Shown here: positions 618 to 45,793 of the stretch, piece after piece
How positions within the stretch are numbered: position 1 is the first letter of the stretch
Layout of the letters: every line of letters starts with the position of its first letter
From: an uncultured Pelagibacteraceae bacterium
Lineage (GTDB): Bacteria; Pseudomonadota; Alphaproteobacteria; Pelagibacterales; Pelagibacteraceae
NCBI GenBank assembly: GCA_902517865.1
Contig: CABYDT010000001.1
Location: 1 to 64,000, forward strand
Direction of reading: 5' to 3'
DNA: 64,000 bases
The notes under the pieces: model-generated
Databases searched by the model: none
What the model saw: the letters and a program-made list of their open reading frames with translations, nothing else
What the model was told of the DNA's origin: nothing
Position numbers and translations under genes: made by a program

Positions 618-1319
618 TTATCTTTGAGACGCTGGCGTCATTGCTTTAGCAGCAGCGTAAATAACTAAACCAAAACCGATTTTGTTTAGGAAGTCAGCTA
701 GGTTGTAAATGATATTTAGAGTAATTTCATCTACATTGCCCATTAAGTAACCGAATAGGTAACCTAAAGGATAAATTGCCCAGCCGATAGTTACGACCCA
801 CTTACAGAAATTAAATGCTTCTGCACCTGGACCTCTCATCTTGCTTGCAATTGTACCTGCTTCACCTGCAAAGATTTCATACAGAATGTATATCCATCCA
901 GCCATTCCTACTACGAAACCAGCTGTTGGGTTAATCATGCCAGCTTCACCTAAGTAACCAGCTGCAAGCATAACTACTGTACCGATTAATAATCTCCAGA
1001 AAATTCCAGTTGGAACTTTACGTACAGCTGAAAGAATAAAGTAAAATTCTAACATCTGTAATGGAACAGTTAATAACCAGTCTACATATCTATAAACTGT
1101 TGGAGTTGCGCCTGTAGTTACCCAGACATTTCTCATGTACATGTAATGAACAAATGCGATACCACAAACTAAACCCATAAGAGTAACCGAAGTTCTCCAA
1201 GAAGCTTTTACAGAATTTCTTTCTACAAAGAAAAATACTGTAGCAGCTAACATAGCCATTGAAATGACCCAGAAACTAATTCCTGTAAAATCATTTGTAG
1301 CTAAAAAGGTTGTTTTCAT
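618..1319 (-). CDS. Proteorhodopsin, blue-absorbing light-driven proton pump
   Basis: A 233-aa seven-helix retinal protein of the inner membrane that exports protons in light. The retinal-binding Lys is K213 in NLADFLNKIGFG. The Schiff-base counterion/proton acceptor is D80 in RYVDWLLTVPLQ and the proton donor is E91; H58 matches the conserved His of helix B. Residue Q88 corresponds to position 105 of green proteorhodopsin, where Gln gives blue absorption and Leu green. The frame stays open 38 codons further upstream, but that stretch is the leader RNA and not signal-peptide-like. The ATG at 1319 has an AAGGGAG ribosome site 8 nt upstream, so it is the start. The protein lacks the N-terminal signal peptide found in many proteorhodopsins. 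It is monocistronic, divergent from prpE; no retinal or carotenoid gene is in the window. Confidence 0.96.
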   Translation of the reverse strand: MKTTFLATNDFTGISFWVISMAMLAATVFFFVERNSVKASWRTSVTLMGLVCGIAFVHYMYMRNVWVTTGATPTVYRYVDWLLTVPLQMLEFYFILSAVRKVPTGIFWRLLIGTVVMLAAGYLGEAGMINPTAGFVVGMAGWIYILYEIFAGEAGTIASKMRGPGAEAFNFCKWVVTIGWAIYPLGYLFGYLMGNVDEITLNIIYNLADFLNKIGFGLVIYAAAKAMTPASQR

Positions 1320-1344
1320 ATTTTTTTCTCCCTTTTTGTTTAAA

Positions 1345-1432
1345 CAAAAAATGCGAATACAAATTTCTTTGAATTCGCAATCCTTAGCCGCCTTTTTACT
1401 AGAGTTTTGAGCTTTAAGGAACACCTGTCGCA
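1345..1432 (-). ncRNA. Structured 5' leader or small RNA upstream of proteorhodopsin
   Basis: Between a TATATATA box (about 1433-1440) and the proteorhodopsin start, the minus strand can form two adjacent hairpins. The first pairs TCCTTA (1420-1415) with TAAGGA (1386-1381), plus an inner GC/GC step across a 2-nt bulge, around an A-rich loop. The second is the terminator described separately. The layout (fold, then terminator, then ribosome site and ATG) is that of a transcription attenuator or of a short RNA processed or terminated before the gene. I did not match it to any riboswitch family I know. What is seen is the pairing; a regulatory role is inference. Confidence 0.5.
1346..1379 (-). 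terminator. Intrinsic terminator inside the proteorhodopsin leader
   Basis: TGCGAAT pairs with ATTCGCA (1379-1352). After one T-T mismatch, CAAA pairs with TTTG around a GAAA tetraloop, and the hairpin is followed by six T (1351-1346). It ends only 26 nt before the proteorhodopsin ATG, leaving no obvious room for another promoter, so transcription of the gene probably has to read through it. Confidence 0.7.
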
Positions 1433-25341: not shown

Positions 25342-25428
25342 AAATAAACTCTTTTTACCCATCTGTCTGTTTACCTGAGAGATTTGCTCCTTCGGTGGAA
25401 CTTAAAGTTCGCTTTCCAGAGTTTATTT
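25342..25428 (-). promoter_or_regulatory. Glycine riboswitch expression platform: anti-ribosome-site helix
   Basis: On the minus strand AAATAAACTCT (25428-25418, linker and start of aptamer 2) is exactly complementary over 11 nt to AGAGTTTATTT (25352-25342), which holds the ribosome site and ends at the base before the gcvT ATG. The inner part of this helix competes with the aptamer-2 P1 pairing (TCTG with CAGA). Glycine binding would thus free the ribosome site, giving an ON switch at translation. Pairing is seen; the direction of control is inferred. Confidence 0.6.
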
Positions 25429-25503
25429 TAGCACGGTCCTTTTGCCTGAGAGTTTCCTGGGCTTCTTGCTCCTTCGGCGCTATAAAGATAGTCTCTCCCG
25501 TAC
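25362..25503 (-). ncRNA. Tandem glycine riboswitch
   Basis: Two glycine aptamers in series upstream of gcvT. Aptamer 1 runs about 25503-25431 with P1 GTACGG/CCGTGC, the conserved GCCGAAGGAGCAA and AACTCTCAGGCAAAAGGACCGT. Aptamer 2 runs about 25420-25362 with CTCTGGAAAG, a GAAC/GTTC hairpin, CACCGAAGGAGCAA and ATCTCTCAGGTAAACAGACAGA. Glycine riboswitches are known to control glycine use genes in SAR11, which needs glycine or serine. Confidence 0.96.
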
Positions 25504-25510
25504 GAATCCA

Positions 25511-45757: not shown

Positions 45758-45793
45758 AAAAAAAGACCCTGTTTAAAACAGGGTCTTTTTTTA
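45758..45793 (-). terminator. Intrinsic terminator after pal
   Basis: AAAAAGACCCTGT pairs with ACAGGGTCTTTTT around a TTAAA-type loop, with T-runs on both sides. Read from the minus strand it lies 15 nt after pal and 29 nt before cpoB, so it ends or attenuates the tol-pal transcript and separates it from cpoB. It is nearly symmetric and could act in both directions. Confidence 0.85.

Follow-up and report, generated by a model that had tools for sequence, protein, structure and literature searches.

The proteorhodopsin gene in the analysed stretch of Pelagibacteraceae DNA (64,000 nucleotides, hereafter the window) is preceded by a short leader hairpin, which is shared by all 14 complete leaders sampled from SAR11 clade III (three genera and one genome of a Fonsibacter-like genus) and appears to be under selection for base pairing. 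It has no match in Rfam. Our preferred explanation, to which we would give slightly less than an even chance, is that it acts in cis as a 5'-UTR stem-loop, specific to proteorhodopsin in this clade, that makes the mRNA more stable and keeps the ribosome site insulated. The control of proteorhodopsin in SAR11 is poorly understood, and a leader element found only at this gene provides a concrete target for it in clade III, including strain HIMB114. In axenic cultures of clade Ia, proteorhodopsin has been found to be constitutive, with about two-fold more in the dark in stationary phase (PMC3090418).

The gene and its leader are arranged in the window as follows:

618-1319, minus strand: proteorhodopsin gene (ATG at 1319-1317, 233 aa), an open frame with homologues
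1328-1332, minus strand: Shine-Dalgarno site GGGAG, recognised from the sequence and conserved in the alignment
1335-1348, minus strand: longer dyad TTTGTTTAAACAAA, which contains GTTTAAAC
1338-1345, minus strand: GTTTAAAC, the invariant dyad core (14 of 14 leaders)
1346-1351, minus strand: T6 run, a terminator-like tail or the 3' strand of a basal stem
1352-1379, minus strand: core hairpin TGCGAATTCAAAGAAATTTGTATTCGCA, from folding, shuffles and covariation
1381-1385, minus strand: AAGGA, the predicted first nucleotides of the mRNA, which would pair with the T run (from the predicted start and fold)
1393-1398, minus strand: TAAAAA, putative -10 element, from its position and a TANANA-like pattern in 13 leaders
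1397-1408, minus strand: AAAACTCTAGTA, a copy of the upstream box CAAAyTyNAGTA and probable promoter region, from the anchored comparison of 13 leaders

Relatives of the encoded proteorhodopsin, 50-100% identical, are found across the family; those of clade III begin directly at MKTTFLATNDF, while those of clade Ia (L027-L031) carry an N-terminal signal-peptide-like extension. An in-frame continuation of the open frame back to position 1433 was considered as a leader peptide or as part of a longer protein, but stop codons interrupt it in a 95%-identical sister and in the majority of the other relatives, and hence it is not coding. A second rhodopsin, approximately 31% identical, is encoded in this genome at G000:C4:86485-87177 (L002) and was also found in relatives (L113, L114 and L116); it has T at the proton-acceptor position (RYITW vs RYVDW) and may be the flotillin-associated rhodopsin paralogue of PMC10308929.

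The core hairpin and selection on its pairing

As stated in the original prediction, the leader carries a hairpin of 7+4 bp with a GAAA loop, followed by a T6 run, 26 nt before the ATG. Folding of positions 1352-1379 reveals a 1x1 U.U mismatch and yields -10.1 kcal/mol, to be taken with the softness of thermodynamic predictions for AT-rich RNA, and this exceeds chance, with one of 60 anchored shuffles folding equally well. The 45-nt stretch beginning at the predicted transcript start (1385) has a fold z of -4.0; the whole 119-nt leader folded together is unremarkable (z = -0.97). The core hairpin is the dominant fold in most leaders. The predicted openness of the Shine-Dalgarno site is unremarkable.

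Two other elements that had been proposed for this leader fared differently. The letters of a stem between TCCTTA (1415-1420) and TAAGGA (1381-1386) are there, but they pair with no more than ordinary energy (p = 0.19), the T run is the better partner for bases 1381-1385, and the stem was rejected as a conserved helix, as it must slip in the 95%-identical sister and has no consistent counterpart in relatives. The GAAA tetraloop is seen in the window hairpin, but the loops vary among leaders, which rules it out as a conserved contact.

The stem itself changes among relatives in a manner that suggests the preservation of pairing. It reads TGCGAA...TTCGCA in the genus of the window (g1), TGTGAATTCTA...TAGAATTCACA in leader L011 and TTTAGAGC...GCTCTAAA in leader L022. 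Among five hairpins of 28 nt that align without gaps, three pairs are changed on both sides, with a covariation score reached by two of 500 shuffles. In a second test, based on a MAFFT alignment of twelve leaders made without structure fitting, 84% of the cells pair and nine carry a change on both sides, a number reached by none of 500 shuffles, while sliding the partner by 1-3 columns reduces the pairing to 40% or less. In the HIMB114-type leaders (g9) taken alone the stem hardly varies and no covariation was detected. We consider the evidence for selection on pairing good, albeit not overwhelming, because the independent lineages are few and the shuffles ignore relatedness. The expectation of a conserved RNA hairpin is thus borne out by compensatory changes among relatives, and the first of the two outcomes named in advance as speaking against it, namely no conservation or compensation, did not occur.

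Distribution of the hairpin and of the downstream dyad

Both the family and named genome records supplied proteorhodopsin loci, with HIMB114 represented by L037. Hairpin-bearing leaders come from g1 (three genomes), g9, g12 and a single genome (G064) of g6, which we take to be a Fonsibacter-like genus, the clade names Ia and III being likewise our own assignment, based on genome sizes and strains. All 14 complete clade III leaders sampled from these groups possess the hairpin at a fixed position, 28-34 nt before the ATG, and share the order hairpin, T(3-8), GTTTAAAC, A-rich segment, Shine-Dalgarno site, ATG. The hairpin is absent from the other g6 leaders and from the clade Ia leaders sampled; consequently, it would be expected to escape a survey that starts from a clade Ia genome, and the Fonsibacter-like genomes that lack it constitute a natural control. 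On the proteorhodopsin tree the hairpin label requires two changes, compared with 10.8 obtained by shuffling, which agrees with a single gain at the base of clade III and a single loss within g6.

The upstream neighbour is divergently oriented in every leader sampled; it is acs-like in g1, g12 and G064, and crtI-like (carotenoid desaturase family) in g9 and the remaining g6 leaders, and the hairpin occurs beside either type. Since no sampled leader has an upstream gene on the same strand, the possibility that the hairpin is the terminator of another gene was discarded, and it can be assigned to the proteorhodopsin transcript. In 32 genomes, a covariance model built from twelve leaders matches proteorhodopsin leaders at E <= 2.6e-5, among them L010, which was outside the training set, and nothing besides proteorhodopsin leaders below E 0.004; the L022 leader was not convincingly recovered (E 0.11). 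Five weaker matches comprise three antisense hits inside one conserved gene (carB-like by translation), one inside another coding frame and one unrelated terminator, so that an element shared by a regulon finds no support. By both the covariance model and the dyad pattern, a single gene per genome carries the element. The claim that it belongs to no known RNA family agrees with the Rfam searches, which returned no credible match at curated or permissive thresholds. In viral contigs, no related protein was found. Elsewhere in the window, positions 25424-25510 on the minus strand correspond to a glycine riboswitch (Rfam RF00504, 66.8 bits).

Directly after the T run, GTTTAAAC is invariant in 14 of 14 clade III leaders. 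The pattern of dyad, Shine-Dalgarno site and ATG is present at proteorhodopsin in all 15 clade III genomes with a match (15/15), with three further matches elsewhere, and the exact 14-mer TTTGTTTAAACAAA has one copy in its own genome, which argues against a regulon. A copy of GTTTAAAC before amt was dismissed, as it is confined to two close relatives and is not conserved. In three genomes from two other SAR11 genera (L122, L138 and L139), TTTGTTTAAACAAA also directly precedes the Shine-Dalgarno site of a gene for a tiny protein rich in Lys and Arg (MAKRRKK...). Clade Ia leaders (e.g. L027, L030, L057) contain a related perfect AT-rich dyad, GTTTA followed by a centre and TAAAC. Its usual form is TAGTTTA-N4-TAAACTA, with N2 in some leaders, and it is located approximately 20 nt upstream of the Shine-Dalgarno site; the centres are TATA, AATT, ATAT, TTAA or TA and are self-complementary in 91 of 91 matching leaders. 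The variable spacing argues against a simple dimer operator, and the perfect centres argue against a plain hairpin loop.

The probable promoter and the terminator-like tail

When 13 leaders were anchored on a shared AGTA, they were found to have in common the box CAAAyTyNAGTA, an A-rich stretch resembling a -10 element and an A at the expected sigma-70 start; in most of them the distance from the end of the box to the hairpin, judged by inspection, is 16-19 nt. Leader L022 has no AGTA box. A general promoter scan did not flag the site in the window, where the box pattern is no commoner than chance. We regard the conserved box as a probable promoter, with a start at approximately 1385, about 5 nt before the hairpin; because the anchor was itself chosen and the general scan did not pick the site, this promoter is one that we infer. 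From the predicted start, the 5' UTR would be 55-68 nt long and in 13 of 13 leaders would fold into a single stem-loop opening at nucleotides 1-5, with z from -2.5 to -6.9 and, if the start is right, only 0-4 unpaired nucleotides before the extended stem. In the predicted folds the extension comes mostly from the A/G-rich first nucleotides, which pair with the U run.

The T run has a length of T6-8 in 12 leaders and T3-4 in two, which keep the hairpin nevertheless, so that the terminator tail seems to be dispensable. The intrinsic terminator score is above 0 in 12 of the 14 clade III leaders (8.7 in the window), and among 135 leaders scanned, some of them the same locus entered twice, positive scores are confined to the clade III hairpin group, with none of the other SAR11 proteorhodopsin leaders scoring as an intrinsic terminator. 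The leader scores range from 1 to 20, compared with 54.5 for the 3' terminator of the proteorhodopsin gene. The window contains 8 terminator-scoring sites including this hairpin, and only three of the places are intergenic. Strong intrinsic terminators are located at 571-596, after proteorhodopsin (54.5), and at 45765-45785, where a bidirectional one lies between two genes, with few others in the 64 kb. A site called as terminator-like may conceal a long stem with the U run as its 3' strand.

Alternative explanations and known systems

According to the stabilising and insulating explanation, transcription would start at about 1385 and the mRNA would begin with the stem-loop, in which the first, A/G-rich nucleotides would pair with the U run and so close the base. 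With its 5' end enclosed in the stem, the mRNA would resist pyrophosphate removal and 5'-end-dependent cleavage by RNase E, the self-contained fold would keep upstream RNA away from the ribosome site, and an abundant membrane protein would thereby have a long-lived mRNA. As a strand of the basal stem, the U run would serve a purpose other than termination, in keeping with the two T3-4 leaders. A 5'-terminal stem-loop is known to stabilise E. coli mRNAs (Emory 1992; Bouvet and Belasco 1992; Arnold 1998; Bricker 1999; as cited in PMC3997798), and this knowledge, together with the predicted fold at the 5' terminus, leads us to prefer the explanation to leaky attenuation. Counting against it are the T6-8 run that 12 of 14 leaders retain and that a terminator would require, the lack of a scan-flagged promoter, the unremarkable predicted openness of the Shine-Dalgarno site, the small number of independent lineages, the absence of covariation within g9 and the missing AGTA in L022.

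Leaky attenuation is the main rival, possible in our opinion yet rather unlikely: the hairpin with its U run would be a leaky intrinsic terminator a few tens of nucleotides from the promoter, and some factor would set the read-through. It draws on the positive scores, which 12 of 14 leaders have and which none of the other SAR11 proteorhodopsin leaders scanned shares, and on the use of intrinsic terminators by this genome, for instance after proteorhodopsin. However, scores of 1-20 are weak next to 54.5, two leaders lack the full U run, no conserved antiterminator, leader peptide or sensor was found in the leaders compared, and the upstream frame is non-coding. Of the attenuator or riboswitch architecture put forward in the original prediction, the terminator-like part is supported by score, and the riboswitch part is not, given the absence of a conserved aptamer, the failure of the first stem and the variable loops. 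Although the position in the leader and the terminator-like hairpin would suit a riboswitch, or a stand-alone small RNA that shares the promoter, we consider either very improbable: there is no conserved aptamer sequence or second stem, the loops and flanks vary, Rfam offers no match, and little room is left upstream if the predicted start is right. For the small RNA, which had also been suggested, we found no positive evidence.

It is also improbable that GTTTAAAC is a DNA or RNA site for a regulatory protein and that the hairpin merely positions or insulates it. The invariance of GTTTAAAC amid varying surroundings would agree with such a site, as would the related perfect dyad of clade Ia leaders with its self-complementary centres (91/91), but the halves are spaced by 0, 2 or 4 bases among clades, unlike a fixed dimer operator, and the exact 14-mer occurs once in its own genome. 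A small chance may be granted to a regulated switch, in which the stem-loop or terminator together with GTTTAAAC would respond to some factor (light, retinal, energy state) and set the output after initiation. If true, marine rhodopsins would have their first known point of control at the RNA level.

Among known systems, the candidate SAR11 RNA motifs of Meyer et al. 2009 (PMC2704228), a report whose main text does not mention rhodopsin, resemble the present element in being intergenic hairpins, one of which is often followed by a poly-U tract. Attenuators based on intrinsic terminators likewise have, in the 5' leader, a hairpin with a T run immediately behind it, and the score is above 0 in 12 of 14 leaders here; the present element differs in its weak scores, in the short T run of two leaders, and in that no sensor, leader peptide or antiterminator was found. 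The stem-loops of ompA and papA in E. coli and of aprE in B. subtilis are located, like the one predicted here, at or near the 5' end and close to the ribosome site, and they too precede genes with abundant products. What sets the clade III element apart from them is that its 5' end is predicted, that the U run would form the 3' strand of the basal stem, that the invariant GTTTAAAC follows, and that it belongs to one gene in one clade.
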